From: Mycoplana azooxidifex
GTDB lineage: Bacteria > Pseudomonadota > Alphaproteobacteria > Rhizobiales > Rhizobiaceae
DNA length: 64,000 bases
Assembly (NCBI RefSeq): GCF_014196765.1
Contig: NZ_JACIEE010000007.1
Span: 372,001-436,000, forward strand
Direction of reading: 5' to 3'
Below, piece after piece: positions 28,774 through 37,857 of this stretch; the first letter of the stretch is position 1, and the number at the start of each line of letters is the position of its first letter. The translations under genes were made by a program, and so were the position numbers. A model generated the notes under the pieces. That model made no database searches and was not told where the DNA came from. It saw only the letters and a list, made by a program, of their open reading frames with translations.

Positions 28774-29874
28774 TCACTTCGGCAGGGGAGAGGCGACACC
28801 CTTGACGTGCCAGTCCATCGCGACGATCTCGGCGTCGGTGAGGGTAGCGCCGCCGGCAACCCCTTCGCTGCCGTCAGCCTTGGCGATCGGCCCGGTGAAC
28901 GGCGAGAAGCTGCCGTCGGCGATCTTCGCCTCCAGCTCCTTGATTTTGGTCATCGTGTCGGCCGGGATGTCCGGGTTCCAGTCCACCACCTCGACCACCT
29001 TGTCGGCCACGCCGAGGAAGGTGTTGGCGCCCTTGAAGGTGCCGGCGAGATGGGCATCGACCGAGGCCTTGAAGAAGGGCGACCAGTCCGTGGCGACGCA
29101 GCCGAGATAGGTCTTCGGAGCGTATTTCTTCATCGAAGAATTGAGGTTGAAGGCGTAGACGCCGGCTTCCTCGCAGGCCGCGATGACGGACGGCGTGTCC
29201 TGCGCGTTGGAGAAGATCACGTCGCATTTCTGCGCGATCAGCGCCTTGGCCGCTTCCTGTTCCTTGGCCGGATCGAACCAGGAATTCACCCAGACGACCG
29301 AGACCTCGATATCGGGATTGACCGCTTGGGCGCCGAGCGTGAACGCGTTGACGGAGGTGATCAGCTCCGGAATGGCAAACGCCGAGACCGAACCGAGCTT
29401 GCCGGTCTTGGAGAGCGCCGCCGCGGCCATGCCGAGCAGGTAGGTCCCTTGGAAATACTTGGCGGCGAAGGGCGAGAAATTCGGCGCCACCTGGAAACCG
29501 GAGGCATGCAGCACGGTCACGCTCGGATCGCGCCTTGCGATCTGCAGCGCGCCGTTCTGGTAGCCGAAGGAACCGGCGATCAGGAACTTGTTTCCGTCGG
29601 CAACCGTCTTGTTCATGATCCGGTCCGCATCCGGGCCTTCCTGGATGTTTTCCAGGACGGTGACCTTCACCTTGTCCCCGTAGGCAGCCTTGACCGGCTC
29701 AAGACCGGCTGCAAGCGCGTGTCCCCAGCCGACGTCGCCGACCGGCGAGGGGAGCACGAGGGTGATGCCGAGCGGCTCGTCGGCGGCGAGCGCAAGCCGG
29801 CTTCCGAGCGTACCGGCAAGCCCGGTCGCGGCAAGGCCCTTCATCAAGGTTCTGCGGGTCAGGTGGTTCATCAT
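28774..29874 (-). CDS. BMP-family periplasmic binding protein of a purine-type ABC transporter
   Basis: 366 residues. A Tat-type signal is visible (TRRTLMKGLAATGLAGTLGS), with cleavage expected near ALA-AD. The mature protein has the BMP (basic membrane protein/PnrA) fold: ITLVLPSPVGDVGWGHALAAG, DPSVTVLHASGF and KCDVIFSNAQDTPSVIAACEE. Members bind nucleosides, nucleobases or related heterocycles. Placement between an 8-oxoguanine-deaminase-like gene and the transporter ATPase supports a purine ligand. The use of Tat rather than Sec suggests folding before export. Confidence 0.9.
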   Translation of the reverse strand: MMNHLTRRTLMKGLAATGLAGTLGSRLALAADEPLGITLVLPSPVGDVGWGHALAAGLEPVKAAYGDKVKVTVLENIQEGPDADRIMNKTVADGNKFLIAGSFGYQNGALQIARRDPSVTVLHASGFQVAPNFSPFAAKYFQGTYLLGMAAAALSKTGKLGSVSAFAIPELITSVNAFTLGAQAVNPDIEVSVVWVNSWFDPAKEQEAAKALIAQKCDVIFSNAQDTPSVIAACEEAGVYAFNLNSSMKKYAPKTYLGCVATDWSPFFKASVDAHLAGTFKGANTFLGVADKVVEVVDWNPDIPADTMTKIKELEAKIADGSFSPFTGPIAKADGSEGVAGGATLTDAEIVAMDWHVKGVASPLPK

Positions 29875-29895: not shown

Positions 29896-31278
29896 TTAGA
29901 ATTCGATGGTGGCGAGCGCGGCCTCGGCCTCGGCGAACAACTGGGCCTCGTCGAGCCCTGCAAACCCGCCCTTCTGCCAGACGATGCGGCCGTTGATCAT
30001 GGTCATGTCGGTCGGCATGCCGATCCCCACCTTGGCAATCAGGCTCAGCGGATCGTGCCGCGTGCCGACATAGTCCATGCGCCGCGTGTCGATCGCAAAG
30101 AGATCGGCGGCCATGCCCGGCGCCAGCCGGCCGATATCGCGGCGGCCGAGAAGGGCAGCCCCTCCCATCGTCGCATAGCCGAGGAAATCGGCAGGCGAGG
30201 GGACGGGATGGACACGCGACGATGCGGCCAAGCACTGCAGCATGTAGGCGGAGCGGATGCAGTGCATCAGGTTGGAGTTGTCGTTCGAGGCCGCGCCGTC
30301 GCAGCCGAGGCCGACCCGCAGGCCGAAGGCCGACATGGCGGGAATGTCGGTGACCTCGGCGCCGACGAGATAGACCGGTTCCGGGCAATGCGACACGCCG
30401 GTGCCGCTTGCCGCCATCGTCCGCAGTTCGCCGTGTGTCAGTTCCCAGCAATGGGCATAGAAGGCATCGGGCCCGGCAAAGCCGAGCTCTTCGAGATAGT
30501 CGACCGTGCGCATGCCATGGCGGCTTTCGATCACGGCGCTTTCGCCCTCGCCGACATGGGTGTGCATCTGCACTCCGCGATCGCGCGCCAGCGCGACCGA
30601 TTCGACGAAGGTCTCGCGGTAGCAGTTGACCGGCTGGCAGGGCGCGACCACGACCTGGCGCATGCTGAAGCGGCCGGTGTCGTGGTAGGTGTCGATCAGC
30701 CGGGCGCAATCGGCGATGAACTCGTCCGTCGTCTCCAGCATCTCGTCCGGAATGGTCGAGCCTTCCGACTTCGGCAGCGTATTGCCGCCGCGTCCGGCAT
30801 GAAAGCGCATGCCGAGCAACTCCGCCGCCTCGAACTGGCGGTCGACCAGCCGTTTGCCGGCATGGCGCGGGAAATTATACTGGTGGTCGAAGGCCGTGGT
30901 GCAGCCGTGCTTGATCATCTCGGCCATGGCCGTGACCGAGGAATGATAGAAGCAATCCTCTGTCAGCCTGGAGAATACCGGGTAGATCCGGTCGAGCCAT
31001 TCGATGACCGACAGCTTCGTCCAGTCGAGATCGGCGCGGTTGCGCACGAAGCACTGGAAGAAATGATGGTGGGTGTTGACGAGGCCCGGATAGACGAACC
31101 AGCCGGTGGCATCCTGTACGATCGTCCCCGCGGGCAGATCGCCCCGGCCGAGGCCTTCACCGATCGCCACGACTGCGGGACCCTCCGTCAGGAGATCGAC
31201 ATTGCGATGGACGGCCGAGCCGGCGCCGTCGTCGACGATCACCGCCGCGCAATTCCTCAGGAGGTAGCCGGCCATCAT
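29896..31278 (-). CDS. Amidohydrolase, 8-oxoguanine deaminase-like
   Basis: 460 residues, metal-dependent amidohydrolase superfamily. The metal motif HxH is in VNTHHHFFQ; further ligands sit in HTHVGEGESAV, YAHCWELT and GLGCDGAASND, whose Asp is catalytic. CTTAFDHQYNFPRHAG and HCPEPVYLVGAEV are close to the 8-oxoguanine/guanine deaminase (ATZ/TRZ) branch. Expected reaction: hydrolytic removal of the exocyclic amino group of a purine such as 8-oxoguanine, giving urate. Its start overlaps the GST gene's stop by 4 bases, and the BMP transporter genes follow, so transport, deamination and oxygenation are one unit. Confidence 0.85.
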   Translation of the reverse strand: MMAGYLLRNCAAVIVDDGAGSAVHRNVDLLTEGPAVVAIGEGLGRGDLPAGTIVQDATGWFVYPGLVNTHHHFFQCFVRNRADLDWTKLSVIEWLDRIYPVFSRLTEDCFYHSSVTAMAEMIKHGCTTAFDHQYNFPRHAGKRLVDRQFEAAELLGMRFHAGRGGNTLPKSEGSTIPDEMLETTDEFIADCARLIDTYHDTGRFSMRQVVVAPCQPVNCYRETFVESVALARDRGVQMHTHVGEGESAVIESRHGMRTVDYLEELGFAGPDAFYAHCWELTHGELRTMAASGTGVSHCPEPVYLVGAEVTDIPAMSAFGLRVGLGCDGAASNDNSNLMHCIRSAYMLQCLAASSRVHPVPSPADFLGYATMGGAALLGRRDIGRLAPGMAADLFAIDTRRMDYVGTRHDPLSLIAKVGIGMPTDMTMINGRIVWQKGGFAGLDEAQLFAEAEAALATIEF

Positions 31279-31934
31279 GCCTCGCCCGGTTCGATGTGCG
31301 GTTCGGGCTTCAGTTCGTGCAGCCGATGGATGCCGGGCATCTCGATGAAGCCATCGAGCGCGCGGATGGCGCGCGACCAGAGGCGGATCGCGGGATAGGG
31401 ATCGAGCGAGACGCCGCCGTCGGGGGCGAGCGCCACATAGGGGAAGCAGGCGATGTCTGCCACCGTCGGCCGGTCGGCCGCGAGGAAGCGCTGGCCGCGC
31501 AGGCCCTGCTCGAAAAGGCCCGCTTCCAGCTCGCGAAGGGCGGCGATTCCCTGCGCCTGGAACGCGCCGATGTCGCCGGGGCGCAGCAGCATCTCATGCA
31601 GGCGCGCGCCGCCGAGACTTGCGGTCAGGCGGCCGGAGAACGACAGCCATTGCTGCACGCGCGCGGCCTCTTCCGCCTTGCCGCTGCCGAGCCATTCCGG
31701 TGCAGCCTTGGCGGCGAGATAGACGAGGATCGCCGAGGATTCGGTAAGGACAAGGTCGCCATCCTCCAGGATCGGGATGGAGCCTGCCGGATTGAGGGCC
31801 ATGAGTTCGGGGCCGCGATGTTCGCCGCCGGGATGGAAGTCCACCGGCCGGAGTTCGAGCCTGACCCCAATCAGCGCCGCCATCAGGCGCACCTTGTAGC
31901 AACTGGGCGAAAGAATGTAGTTGTAGAGCTTCAT
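31275..31934 (-). CDS. Glutathione S-transferase-family protein (possible NdmE-like scaffold)
   Basis: 219 residues from ATG 31934, which overlaps the upstream oxygenase stop by 4 bases. The N-terminal thioredoxin-like domain reads YILSPSCYKVRLMAALIGV with GSIPILEDGDLVLTESSAIL, the usual glutathione-contact text. A helical C-terminal domain follows (QRFLAADRPTVADIACFPY). Normal length for the family. Its position directly between a Rieske-less oxygenase and a purine deaminase is notable: in the caffeine-degrading Pseudomonas putida CBB5, the GST-like NdmE is needed for the Rieske-less N-demethylase NdmC. A scaffold role here is inference. Confidence 0.85.
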   Translation of the reverse strand: MKLYNYILSPSCYKVRLMAALIGVRLELRPVDFHPGGEHRGPELMALNPAGSIPILEDGDLVLTESSAILVYLAAKAAPEWLGSGKAEEAARVQQWLSFSGRLTASLGGARLHEMLLRPGDIGAFQAQGIAALRELEAGLFEQGLRGQRFLAADRPTVADIACFPYVALAPDGGVSLDPYPAIRLWSRAIRALDGFIEMPGIHRLHELKPEPHIEPGEA

Positions 31935-32773
31935 TGCGCCACCAGCTGTGCGCCGTAGGTGTAGCCATGGCGCTTCAGCCACCGCCTGTAGGCCACCGAG
32001 GTCAGGTCTGCCCGTGTCGGGATTTCCATGCCGGGATCGAGCGGCAGCAGTCGCGGGATCTGGTTTTCCAGGATCGACCGGTCCTGCAGGAAGATCGTCT
32101 GCTGGAAATGGATGAGGTCGGTCATCGAGCTTTCGTCGTCAAAGAGCGCCATCCACGGCCACACGTCGCAAAGATCCTCCGCGAGCGGTTGGACGAAGAG
32201 CGTGATGACGTCCCATTCGCCGGGCCGGGGCGGGCAGGTCTTGTAGAGCACCGAGCAGGTCGGGGCCGGCACCCGGTACATGTATTCCGTGGTGATGCCG
32301 CCGCTCGCCGACCTGGCGGCCTGCGGCTGGTAGAATTTCACCTGCGTGGCCCAGACCTCGTCCGCATCCTCGCGGATCTCGACCTTGTAGTTCTGCACCT
32401 CCGTGTGCGGCTCGGAGCCGAGGATGTCTGTGTGCACGAAGGGAAAGTGGGCGATGTCCAGGAAATTCTCCACCGCGCGCAGCGGCGAGCAACGCACGCG
32501 GACCACGCCGACATCGACGAAGCGCCGGCCCGGCTGGTCTGCCTCGGGAATGGCGAAGAGTTCCTTCTGGGGCTGCCCGAGCGAGGACCAGACATGGCCG
32601 TAGCGGACGCAAACCGGCAGCGTGCGCCCGTTCGCCGTCACCCTGGCATTTCCGTCCGCATCGCTTGCCACGTCGATCGGCTCTCCCATCAACGCCGTCT
32701 TGCGCCCGAAGCTGTCGAGTTGGCTGACGAGGCCGACCGGATACCATTCGTCGATCATCGCATCCTGCGTCAT
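31931..32773 (-). CDS. Non-heme-iron oxygenase catalytic subunit lacking its Rieske centre (NdmC-like)
   Basis: 280 residues. The N-terminus begins like a ring-hydroxylating oxygenase alpha subunit (IDEWYPVGLVSQLD), but the stretch that should hold the [2Fe-2S] ligands is missing: no CxH...CxxH occurs, and residues 31-66 jump straight to YGHVWSSLGQP. The mononuclear iron site is intact: FLDIAHFPFVH gives Asp106, His109 and His114, with a likely third ligand Asp231 in QQTIFLQDR. Electrons must therefore come from another protein, and the gene just upstream encodes a stand-alone Rieske protein, coupled by ATGA (32770-32773). Length and architecture match NdmC. Likely substrate: a purine, by neighbourhood. 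Confidence 0.83.
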   Translation of the reverse strand: MTQDAMIDEWYPVGLVSQLDSFGRKTALMGEPIDVASDADGNARVTANGRTLPVCVRYGHVWSSLGQPQKELFAIPEADQPGRRFVDVGVVRVRCSPLRAVENFLDIAHFPFVHTDILGSEPHTEVQNYKVEIREDADEVWATQVKFYQPQAARSASGGITTEYMYRVPAPTCSVLYKTCPPRPGEWDVITLFVQPLAEDLCDVWPWMALFDDESSMTDLIHFQQTIFLQDRSILENQIPRLLPLDPGMEIPTRADLTSVAYRRWLKRHGYTYGAQLVAQ

Positions 32774-33423
32774 CGCGAACTCCCCTCCGCCTCGATCGCC
32801 TCGGCCTTGCGCCGCAGCGCTTCGACGGCGCGCGACACGGCGATGCGTTCCAAGAGGCTACTGTCGCCGTCCAGGAGAACATGGATCAGCGTCTCGTCGC
32901 GCTCCTGGAAAGCGAGCAGAAGCCGGATCTCCTGTGAATTCTGCGTCGTTTCCAGCAGGCCGTTCTCATCGGCCTTCGCGCCGGCGGCAGCCTCGAGCGC
33001 CGCCATGCCTGCCTGGGCCTGCAGCGAACGCAGGGGAACGAGCCCGGCCAACTGCGGGGGCTGCGTCGCAGGTTCCCCGACGCCGACCCAGATGACACCG
33101 CCCGCCTCTTCCACCGGATGCGTCGCCACGCGGATCGTCTCCGGCGGCGAAAGGCCCGGATGCGCCGGAATGCGCAGACAGTTTCCGGCCGCTCCGTAGC
33201 TCCAGCCGTGATAGATGCACGAAAGGGTCTCGCCGCGCACGAAGCCATGGGACAGGCGCATGCCGCGATGCGGACAGCGGTCCGCCGAAGCCGAAGGACG
33301 GCCCGACGCACTCCGCCAGAGCGCAATCGGCCCGGCTGGCGTCCGCGCCGGCACCACGGTTCCCGGGGGAAGATCGACAGAAAGGGCGACTGGCGTCCAC
33401 GATCCCGTCGGGTCGGACAGCAT
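32770..33423 (-). CDS. Stand-alone Rieske [2Fe-2S] protein with a helical C-terminal extension
   Basis: 217 residues from ATG 33423 (CAGGAA at good spacing upstream; an ATG at 33468 is possible). The cluster motif is complete: CPHRG (Cys50, His52) and CIYHGWSY (Cys69, His72). The Rieske fold ends near residue 115. The remaining hundred residues, rich in Ala, Glu and Arg, look helical and match no domain I recognise; there is no iron-binding catalytic domain. It is the first gene of the eight-gene purine operon and probably feeds electrons to the Rieske-less subunit encoded next. No reductase or flavoprotein gene is present nearby, so the upstream electron donor must be encoded elsewhere. Confidence 0.85.
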   Translation of the reverse strand: MLSDPTGSWTPVALSVDLPPGTVVPARTPAGPIALWRSASGRPSASADRCPHRGMRLSHGFVRGETLSCIYHGWSYGAAGNCLRIPAHPGLSPPETIRVATHPVEEAGGVIWVGVGEPATQPPQLAGLVPLRSLQAQAGMAALEAAAGAKADENGLLETTQNSQEIRLLLAFQERDETLIHVLLDGDSSLLERIAVSRAVEALRRKAEAIEAEGSSR

Positions 33424-33578: not shown

Positions 33579-33857
33579 TCAGGGTTGCCCGCCGGTTCCG
33601 CCCGCGGCCGGCGTGCGGGTTATCGTCTCGACCCAGACGTCGATCGGGCCAAGCGAGCATCCCATTTCCAGCATGTCGATCAATTCGACCGGCCCTGCCA
33701 CTTCGACTTCGATCCGGCCGGCATCGGCATGGCGGATCTCCTGGCGGAGCCCGAGCTTGGCGGCATGGCGCCGGATCCAGGGAACGAAGGAGGCGGAATC
33801 AACCGCGCCACGAATCGTCATCCGCTCGAAGAGGTGGTCCTGATTCTGTCGGGTCAT
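33579..33857 (-). CDS. Acylphosphatase-like small protein lacking catalytic residues
   Basis: 92 residues. The order GAVDSASFVPWIRRHAAKLGL, then GRIEVEVAGPVELIDMLE and IDVWVETI follows the acylphosphatase ferredoxin-like fold. The catalytic loop that should read GVGFR reads DSASF, and the catalytic Asn position is replaced by His (IRHADAG), so phosphatase activity is unlikely. It sits upstream of the Rieske gene on the same strand with 155 bases between. No clear ribosome-binding site precedes 33857; ATG at residue 13 is an alternative start. Confidence 0.65.
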   Translation of the reverse strand: MTRQNQDHLFERMTIRGAVDSASFVPWIRRHAAKLGLRQEIRHADAGRIEVEVAGPVELIDMLEMGCSLGPIDVWVETITRTPAAGGTGGQP

Positions 33858-34595: not shown

Positions 34596-36797
<2,202 letters not shown>

Positions 36798-36939: not shown

Positions 36940-37857
36940 ATGAATGTCCTCACGATGAAACATCTCCGTTATTTTGACGCGCTTGCCCGGATCGGCCACT
37001 TCGGCCGTGCCGCGGAGAGCTGCGCCATCTCGCAGCCGGCGCTGTCCGTTCAGATACGGGAACTGGAGGTGATACTTGGTGCGCCGCTCGTGGAAAGAGG
37101 GGGGCGCCGCATCCGGCTCACGGGACTCGGCGAAGAGTTCGCGGGACGCACCCGCGCGATCCTGCGTGCTGTTGACGAGCTTGAAGACCTCGGCCGGGCG
37201 GCGCACGGGCCGCTTGCGGGCCGCATTCGTCTCGGCATCATTCCGACGGTAGCGCCTTATTTGCTCCCTGGCATCATAAAGGCGCTCACACAGCTATATC
37301 CCGGCCTCGATCCGCGACCGAAAGAGGCAGTTACGCATAGGCTGATTGAAGACCTGACGGAGGCGCGGCTCGACGCTGCGATCGTTGCTCTGCCGATCTC
37401 AGAGGCCGCGCTGGAGGAGGTTCCGCTCTTCGATGAGGAATTTGTACTGGTGCGACCGTTGGAGGATGCGGGCAAACCTGTGCCGGCCCCCGACCGGCTT
37501 CACGAGATGCGTTTGCTTCTTCTCGAGGAGGGGCATTGCTTCCGTGATCAGGCCCTTTCGGTCTGCAATATGACGGCATCATCGACCCGGGACTTGATGG
37601 AAGGAAGTTCGCTTTCGACGCTCGTTCAGATGGTTGGTGCGGGCATAGGCGTGACGCTTATTCCGCAGATGGCCATCGATATCGAGACACGGTCCTCGTC
37701 TGTATGCGTGTCCCGGCTTGCCGGATCTCGACCTACGCGGACGATCGGGATGGTATGGCGCAAGACCAATCCCCTGTCGGCGCAGTTCGCCCAGGTCGCG
37801 AATATCGTGCGGGAAACCGGGCTGAGCATGCAAAAGCAGTTGGATAACATCCGATGA
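36940..37857 (+). CDS. oxyR: Hydrogen-peroxide-sensing LysR regulator OxyR
   Basis: 305 residues. The N-terminal helix-turn-helix (HFGRAAESCAISQPALSVQI) is followed by the effector domain. The redox switch is conserved: EEGHCFRDQALSVC gives Cys200 and Cys209, equivalent to Cys199 and Cys208 of the E. coli protein. Oxidation to a disulfide turns it into an activator, here most obviously of the divergent katG. The ribosome-binding site is weak (AAAGG lies 20 bases upstream), and ATG at residue 6 is an alternative. Confidence 0.95.
   Translation: MNVLTMKHLRYFDALARIGHFGRAAESCAISQPALSVQIRELEVILGAPLVERGGRRIRLTGLGEEFAGRTRAILRAVDELEDLGRAAHGPLAGRIRLGIIPTVAPYLLPGIIKALTQLYPGLDPRPKEAVTHRLIEDLTEARLDAAIVALPISEAALEEVPLFDEEFVLVRPLEDAGKPVPAPDRLHEMRLLLLEEGHCFRDQALSVCNMTASSTRDLMEGSSLSTLVQMVGAGIGVTLIPQMAIDIETRSSSVCVSRLAGSRPTRTIGMVWRKTNPLSAQFAQVANIVRETGLSMQKQLDNIR

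Follow-up and report, generated by a model that had tools for sequence, protein, structure and literature searches.

How can a Rieske oxygenase work when its two metal centres sit on separate polypeptides? In the structurally characterised enzymes each alpha subunit contains both metal domains, according to an excerpt of PMC12445004. The question is raised by an operon of Mycoplana azooxidifex located in a stretch of 64,000 nucleotides (contig NZ_JACIEE010000007.1, positions 372,001 to 436,000), here called the window, whose own positions serve as coordinates throughout. The operon lies entirely on the - strand and encodes, among other proteins, a stand-alone Rieske protein (P0001), an oxygenase (P0002), a GST-like protein (P0003), an amidohydrolase (P0004) and a BMP-family binding protein (P0005). 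The first-pass annotation had described the genes of the first three as ATGA-coupled, and they were found as such at the positions given in Table 1, on the - strand and with junctions reading ATGA; it had overlooked a 92-residue gene upstream of them (33857-33579). No single chain combines both centres as a complete alpha subunit does; instead, P0001 has one and P0002 the other. The most economical interpretation is that both proteins descend from full alpha subunits and that each has lost the centre kept by the other. With slightly better than even confidence, we hypothesize here that the operon encodes the import of a modified guanine-type purine and the start of its breakdown by a two-part Rieske oxygenase, for which N-demethylation is the most likely reaction.

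The Rieske ligands of P0001 are intact, as had been noted before (CPH...CIYH; PF00355, 3.6e-19), and PF00355 is the sole Pfam domain in its 216 residues, with no fused reductase, in agreement with its description as a separate partner protein. P0002 had been described as an oxygenase with D106, H109 and H114 and without Rieske ligands, and in 48 aligned sequences these three residues and D231 indeed occupy invariant columns, while CxH/CxxH ligands are absent. Judged by its place, D231 would be the third iron ligand. When the oxygenase profile is compared with that of the Rieske domain, the two match over the first 95 residues of the oxygenase except for the cluster-binding stretch, which is absent (97.2%, 3.7e-11); the N-terminus of P0002 is thus a vestigial Rieske domain that lacks the cluster lobe. 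The same division is seen across the family. The D-x2-H-x4-H motif is present and the Rieske motif absent in 148 of 148 true Rieske-less oxygenases, a number cleaned from 158 rows first counted, ten of which were clipped full-length oxygenases. Rieske partners were taken at over 100 bits (146 proteins, excluding one locus, L069, with an NdmD-like gene in pieces), and 133 were kept after removal of 13 near-copies. Among the stand-alone partners, D-x2-H-x4-H occurs in 0/76 and the Rieske ligands in 74/76. The motif appears in two of the 57 partners that are fused to a reductase, but only at residues 16-25, and because this position precedes the Rieske ligands we consider these two occurrences to be due to chance.

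What follows the Rieske domain in P0001 had been called a new helical region, with no catalytic domain. The structural model (pLDDT 93.5) argues against this, as the C-terminal part folds as beta-alpha-beta-beta-beta-alpha and aligns with oxygenase catalytic domains. All 216 residues of the model align with residues 3-289 of GxtA (Z 19.6, rmsd 2.9, 25% identity), and VIA-align also superposed 213 residues on dicamba monooxygenase (Z 19.2) and 215 on NdmA (Z 18.3). According to the model, the C-terminus is a shrunken Rieske-oxygenase catalytic domain without iron ligands. This assignment rests on the structural match, since the sequence-profile match to the catalytic domain is weak when taken alone (hhalign 26.7 for stand-alone and 60.4 for fused proteins, with an oxygenase profile that may hold some clipped full-length rows). 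The C-terminal profile of P0001 also matches the stretch between Rieske domain and reductase in NdmD-like proteins (97.8%, 9.7e-13), a kinship missing from the first-pass annotation. Kinship with the GST-like or the acylphosphatase-like profile was considered as well and discarded (hhalign probabilities 3.3 and 0.1). The model of P0002 (pLDDT 86.5) matches GxtA/SxtT over its full length (TM 0.84, 1.3e-19), followed by NdmA (5.1e-12) in Foldseek. For both models GxtA/SxtT are the best fold match, followed by NdmA in Foldseek and closely by dicamba monooxygenase and NdmA in VIA-align. SxtT and GxtA of the saxitoxin pathway are also the best solved sequence matches of the two proteins, each with a different half; they differ in being alpha3 enzymes with two-domain alpha subunits (excerpt of PMC12445004) and in substrate and pathway.

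P0001 might instead be a plain Rieske ferredoxin that is served by an unlinked reductase, carries an unrelated C-terminal domain and stands outside the oxygenase ring. Its first domain does match the Rieske ferredoxins 2qpz (Z 15.9 over 101 residues) and 1vck (2.6e-07), and no reductase is encoded at the locus. However, the best scores of this domain are with alpha subunits of oxygenases (SxtT, 3.7e-25), the alignment with oxygenases covers the whole protein, and P0002 lacks a cluster, so that a separate Rieske centre should face its iron site. We therefore regard the ferredoxin as very improbable and prefer a heteromer of P0001 and P0002. A heteromeric ring has a precedent, because NdmA/NdmB is listed as an alpha3alpha'3 heterohexamer (excerpt of PMC12445004).

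A Rieske domain on another polypeptide is known from NdmCDE, the 7-methylxanthine N7-demethylase of the caffeine pathway in Pseudomonas putida CBB5, which is the first reported oxygenase with its Rieske domain split off, as stated in part of PMC4408171. With this enzyme the window operon shares a Rieske-less oxygenase subunit, a GST-like partner, the displaced Rieske domain and the purine context. It differs in that the Rieske domain of NdmD is fused to a reductase, whereas P0001 is separate, and in that it adds an acylphosphatase-like gene and an amidohydrolase and lacks the reductase. The proposed NdmC/NdmE-like kinship was upheld by sequence identities of 47% between P0002 and a Klebsiella NdmC-like protein and of 39% between P0003 and the GST of a Pseudomonas NdmC-like cluster, as well as by tree grouping; in these comparisons plasmid proteins of P. 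putida and Klebsiella stand in for the CBB5 sequences. They appear to correspond to the kin named in PMC4408171, an excerpt of which lists Klebsiella WGLW2 and Pseudomonas TJI-51 among the nearest relatives of ndmCDE and places further homologues mainly in Sinorhizobium and Mesorhizobium.

A phylogeny of the oxygenase, proposed earlier as a check, was run in part, in a tree of 169 rows made with a quick method, with 11 outgroup rows and without NdmC of CBB5; the grouping with NdmC-like proteins held. A branch with support 96 has on one side the 148 Rieske-less rows and two outgroup rows, L037 and L043, which are fragments without the motifs and were placed among the Rieske-less rows. Within these, 78 rows group together with a support of 86, which is below the starred level; they comprise the NdmC-like clade (15 rows, 95), the stand-alone set (61 rows, 85; 60 of these at 97) and the long-branched pair L172/L184, with a branching order among the subgroups that the tree leaves unsettled. 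The 18 type A rows (see below) have support 99, and both large type D sets fall outside the 78-row group. The root is weak because the outgroup forms one side of no branch, and many long branches were flagged. Next to the oxygenases of L172 and L184, a 177-residue Rieske-like protein without cluster ligands is encoded (L172 5800-6330, L184 5802-6332), accompanied by full-length and Rieske-less oxygenases, a reductase and an acylphosphatase-like gene.

The family is large. At least 554 relatives were found among at least 587 pattern matches in the genome scan, from which 80 loci were kept, and neighbourhoods were compared in 20, 40 and these 80 loci and in seven plasmid regions, labelled with profiles from the window genes and from four neighbours in related loci. 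P0002 has no second match in its own genome (search at 1e-3). At 1e-10, relatives occur in 60 of 247 family genomes and 12 of 289 class genomes; the genome of the window is included in both counts, and part of the matches are oxygenases with about 30% identity. A search of the plasmid collection at 1e-20 yielded 228 matching records, chiefly from Rhizobium (124) and Sinorhizobium (65), and the operon is carried by pRL10 of Rhizobium johnstonii 3841, a laboratory strain. Four locus types were distinguished. Type A comprises 19 loci including the window, with the 92-residue gene, the Rieske, oxygenase, GST and amidohydrolase genes and the BMP/ABC transporter, and without reductase. The order Rieske-oxygenase-GST-amidohydrolase recurs in all 19, which places this grouping far beyond chance, and the transporter follows in 18 (in L109 the contig ends). 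Type B has two oxygenase genes with one Rieske/GST/92-residue set, plus deaminase genes; eight such loci or locus pairs appear to share one set between two different Rieske-less oxygenases (L057/L058, L074, L075, L077, L078, L080, L081 and L103). Type C combines a stand-alone Rieske protein, oxygenase, GST, a VanB-like reductase, ABC/BMP and 92-residue genes, and in some loci frmA (formaldehyde dehydrogenase; 608 against a cut-off of 544 bits in L062). Type D, to which the Pseudomonas and Klebsiella plasmid clusters belong, often has two oxygenases, an NdmD-like protein of about 588 residues (Rieske, NAD-binding, Fer2), GST and partly frmA/frmB. On plasmid pPp1290 of P. putida 1290 the annotation splits the NdmD-like gene into three pieces (L069, 10850-12605), whereas it is intact in the relative L067. 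Clusters of the fused type with two or three Rieske-less oxygenases lie on pSymA of Sinorhizobium meliloti 2011 (L073; five tblastn places in this record) and 1021 (L071).

Two small proteins accompany the pair. The GST-like nature of P0003 was borne out by matches to PF02798/PF13409, and a GST gene lies near 71/76 stand-alone and 55/57 fused Rieske partners. The 92-residue protein matches PF00708 just above threshold (26.3 against 22.5 bits), NCBIfam models remain below their cut-offs, and solved acylphosphatases are weak hits of its family profile (best 7.7e-06); in R. johnstonii the gene product bears the annotation acylphosphatase. An arginine and an asparagine, which we take to be the catalytic residues of acylphosphatase, are not kept. 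In the window protein these positions hold Val and His, among 34 members they are variable with Arg in few, and in the alignment with 2fhm, FL stands opposite the FR of the enzyme and a variable position opposite its Asn. A distinct L-G-P signature is invariant in 31 aligned members. The protein is thus probably a degenerate relative of acylphosphatase and a putative accessory subunit.

The occurrence of the 92-residue gene follows the stand-alone form. It lies beside the gene of the Rieske protein in 17 type A loci, the other two of the 19, L104 and L110, having no local copy. In the 247 family genomes it was found (at 72.9 bits or more) in 41, solely with the stand-alone oxygenase type; the next-best scores were 44 bits in a genome of the fused type (G207) and at most 35.5 bits in genomes without an oxygenase match. 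Conversely, 41 of the 42 genomes with a stand-alone-type oxygenase have it, the exception being G011; the 42 were sorted by hand, 34 by neighbourhood and eight by subfamily (G014, G094, G117, G177, G185, G191, G224 and G243). In G113 there is no local gene, but a copy on another contig (101 bits) with no oxygenase genes beside it, which resembles the type B copies by eye and may be a remnant. Near the Rieske partners it was found in 62/72 stand-alone loci (64/76 raw) and 0/57 fused ones, the cleaned count dropping L135 (651 residues, probably fused), L119 (contig end) and L172/L184 (177 residues, without ligands). Stand-alone loci without it are L110, L104, L065, L064, L102 (contig edge), L066, L108, L171, L143 and L191. 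As five architecture changes and six changes of the acylphosphatase label suffice on the Rieske-partner tree, the contrast does not represent independent events, and the association is largely clade-level. Better arguments for the link are that the gene stays near despite its shifting cluster position, and the survey of the 247 genomes.

Which substrate does this oxygenase act on? The purine context claimed earlier was reinforced by P0005 and P0004. The best solved relative of P0005 is AtzT (6pi5, 4.4e-81), which retains guanine with a Kd of about 110 nM, the tightest ligand tested, through Tyr45, Ser97, Phe98, Glu165, Trp194, Asn218 and Asn220 (excerpt of PMC6834077). P0005 shares five of these seven residues, Ser97, Phe98, Glu165, Trp194 and Asn218, and has Trp in place of Tyr45; its own ligand is a prediction from this likeness. 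All type A loci but one (18 of 19) show the same contact pattern; the 19th row is another BMP gene of L109, a locus whose actual operon is truncated by the contig end, and the protein of the window was entered twice. In the majority of type B and D proteins the Glu and the Asn are different. P0004 stands near the 8-oxoguanine deaminases but outside the family proper, as it reaches 375.5 bits on PRK08203/NF006055 with a cut-off of 532; no protein over the NF006055 cut-off was found anywhere in the genome. The 8-oxoguanine deaminases (3hpa, 7ww2) are nevertheless its closest family and solved relatives, and it shares with them a Gln after HHH and a Cys in APCxP. In these deaminases the base is presumably contacted by a Gln after strand 1, a Tyr after strand 2 and a Cys after strand 4. 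In all 19 type A proteins the Gln of NTHHHFFQ, which follows the metal-binding HHH stretch, and the Cys of APCQP are present; of the two Tyr in the corresponding stretch of 3hpa, one is kept in P0004 and the other is Phe.

A purine look-alike, i.e. another N-heterocycle (for example a pterin, s-triazine or plant alkaloid), is an unlikely candidate. AtzT also binds 2-hydroxyatrazine (2.2 uM) and ammeline (360 nM), as given in the same excerpt of PMC6834077, the amidohydrolase family includes triazine hydrolases, and P0004 departs from the 8-oxoguanine deaminase motif. However, guanine was bound more tightly by AtzT and P0005 keeps most of its contacts, P0004 is closer to the 8-oxoguanine deaminase 3hpa (9.3e-88) than to triazine hydrolases (2.5e-50), and in the related type B locus L057/L058 family searches confirmed adenine-deaminase-like, 8-oxoguanine deaminase, guanine deaminase and xanthine-dehydrogenase-like genes. 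A purine substrate for the operon is thus well supported by these homologies. Elsewhere the genome encodes xdhB (1381 bits), xdhA (672) and guanine deaminase (574), all over their cut-offs, and a PF06181 urate oxidase, which would make the operon redundant for plain guanine. An importer, a deaminase and an oxygenase set aside for one compound therefore make most sense if this compound is a guanine beyond the reach of the standard enzymes, for example a methylated or oxidised one, and the gene set probably imports and trims a modified guanine.

The kind of reaction is harder to read from the gene content. In CBB5, frmA/frmB lie beside the ndm genes (excerpt of PMC4408171). Genes like these adjoin 24 of 66 reductase-bearing loci (19/57 fused and 5/9 stand-alone with reductase), counted within 9 kb at over 500 bits for FRMA or 200 bits for FRMB, with some loci cut by contig or fetch ends. 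N-demethylation is thereby supported for the wider family, in terms of gene neighbourhood, and unproven for the oxygenase of the window. Alcohol dehydrogenases under this line are encoded in the type A locus L104 (481 bits; at 239 against 544 bits it also misses the class III cut-off) and in L105 (349 bits). Clusters of the fused type with full-length oxygenases and frmA-like and frmB-like genes were seen in Burkholderia, Cupriavidus and Paraburkholderia caffeinitolerans (L120, L121 and L123); these are possibly methylxanthine N-demethylation islands.

Several observations weigh against the demethylation of a modified guanine by a two-part enzyme. P0005 has Asp at Asn220 of AtzT, with a one-residue insertion beside it. 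The motif HCPEPVYLVG in 19/19 type A amidohydrolases replaces the HCPCSNMRL or HCPSANMRCG of 8-oxoguanine deaminases, which makes the substrate of P0004 unsure. Within the same range and at the same score line as above, no formaldehyde gene was found near any of the 65 stand-alone loci without reductase, the kind to which the window belongs. Furthermore, the neighbourhood has no reductase gene, and the single VanB-like match of the genome (33% identity) lies next to a glycine-betaine-monooxygenase-like oxygenase; in three of the 15 other type A genomes there is no VanB-like match at 1e-15. In the remaining 12 some match exists, none above 42% identity.

The absence of formaldehyde genes makes ring hydroxylation, for example at C8 of a guanine or xanthine derivative, whose product would pass to the 8-oxoguanine-deaminase-like enzyme and yield urate-like compounds, a rival to be taken seriously, which we rate as possible yet less probable than demethylation. 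It would use the same two-part oxygenase in the same purine context. The oxygenase gene adjoins a gene of the 8-oxoguanine-deaminase type in type A and also in type B, where the deaminase of L058 exceeds the family cut-off (605 against 532 bits), and part of PMC12445004 treats SxtT/GxtA, the closest solved relatives, as hydroxylases. On the other hand, xanthine dehydrogenase and guanine deaminase genes would render a plain guanine or xanthine hydroxylase redundant, and the oxygenase groups with NdmC-like proteins, NdmCDE being described as an N7-demethylase (excerpt of PMC4408171).

As to the electron donor, the earlier statement that the operon lacks a reductase was corroborated by its gene list and by the absence of reductase labels in the 19 type A loci. 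A search of the genome for a reductase partner, suggested at the same time, yielded only the VanB-like match beside another oxygenase, and we rejected it as a dedicated partner; the search covered VanB-like proteins and no other kinds of donor. That neighbour is a Rieske oxygenase scoring 510 bits on a cut-off of 670, encoded together with its reductase (L206, 6089-8492). In L104, a reductase-labelled frame and a second Rieske protein of 408 residues lie about 9-10 kb away.

Taken together, the operon would work as follows. The BMP/ABC system would import the base, from which P0004 may take off the amino group. The oxygenase would be a complex of two complementary alpha-type subunits, P0001 with the 2Fe-2S cluster and P0002 with the mononuclear iron, in which the cluster of one subunit would face the iron site of the other via the conserved Asp106. 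The GST-like protein may aid assembly, as postulated for NdmE, while the acylphosphatase-like protein would be a non-catalytic subunit specific to the stand-alone form that perhaps docks the electron donor. Oxidative N-demethylation appears the likeliest reaction, with N7 as first choice by analogy with NdmC, and the products, xanthine or urate, would feed the chromosomal purine pathway. We give an even chance to the full combination: a heteromer, arisen by complementary loss and functional only as such, in which a GST-like protein and a dead acylphosphatase-like subunit, the latter exclusive to this form, hold the chains together, and which is dedicated to methylated or oxidised guanine in rhizobia. 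The original observation on the split oxygenase was confirmed, and its purine and NdmC-like interpretation was largely right.

The gene run comprises nine consecutive genes from 33857 down to 25242, and thus extends past the BMP gene, beyond the earlier description, to an ABC transporter ATPase and two permeases (Table 1). ATGA overlaps couple the four genes from P0001 to P0004, including the P0003/P0004 junction at 31278. The 92-residue gene lies 155 bases upstream of P0001 with one terminator-like site in the gap, a type of site of which the region had fewer (1) than shuffled sequence (mean 6.1). For a twin-arginine signal, P0005 gives a borderline match (16.0 against 16.7 bits). The operon is adjoined by a KatG catalase-peroxidase gene (1151 bits, over its cut-off), from which a gene for a LysR-type regulator diverges, nearest to OxyR (224 bits, cut-off 329).

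Table 1. Genes of the operon and its neighbours in the window.
Feature	Coordinates	Strand	Basis
Acylphosphatase-like protein, 92 aa; putative accessory subunit	33579..33857	-	PF00708 26.3 bits
P0001, stand-alone Rieske protein, 216 aa	32770..33423	-	PF00355; model; GxtA match
P0002, Rieske-less oxygenase subunit, 280 aa, NdmC-like	31931..32773	-	PF19112; alignment; tree
P0003, GST-like protein, 219 aa, NdmE-like	31275..31934	-	PF02798/PF13409; 39% identity
P0004, amidohydrolase, 460 aa, 8-oxoguanine deaminase relative	29896..31278	-	PRK08203; PDB 3hpa
P0005, BMP-family periplasmic binding protein, 366 aa, AtzT-like	28774..29874	-	PF02608; AtzT 6pi5
ABC transporter ATPase, 507 aa	27247..28770	-	PF00005, two stretches
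ABC transporter permease, 366 aa	26150..27250	-	PF02653
ABC transporter permease, 303 aa	25242..26153	-	PF02653
KatG catalase-peroxidase	34596..36782	-	1151 bits
LysR-type regulator	36940..37857	+	nearest OxyR, 224 bits

A literature search, conducted mostly by listings, revealed no report of a substrate for the family outside the caffeine enzymes, no description of stand-alone Rieske partners or of the acylphosphatase-like partner and, with the gene tags of R. leguminosarum, nothing on the operon. Beyond NdmCDE, the split-off Rieske part occurs here as a protein of its own, the loss in the two chains is reciprocal, and the arrangement belongs to a large family. A stand-alone Rieske protein makes it testable what the cluster needs from its neighbour and which role the GST-like protein plays, and also whether or not a degenerate acylphosphatase-like protein has turned into an oxygenase subunit. 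As the operon is present on pRL10 of R. johnstonii 3841, its substrate could be sought there directly.

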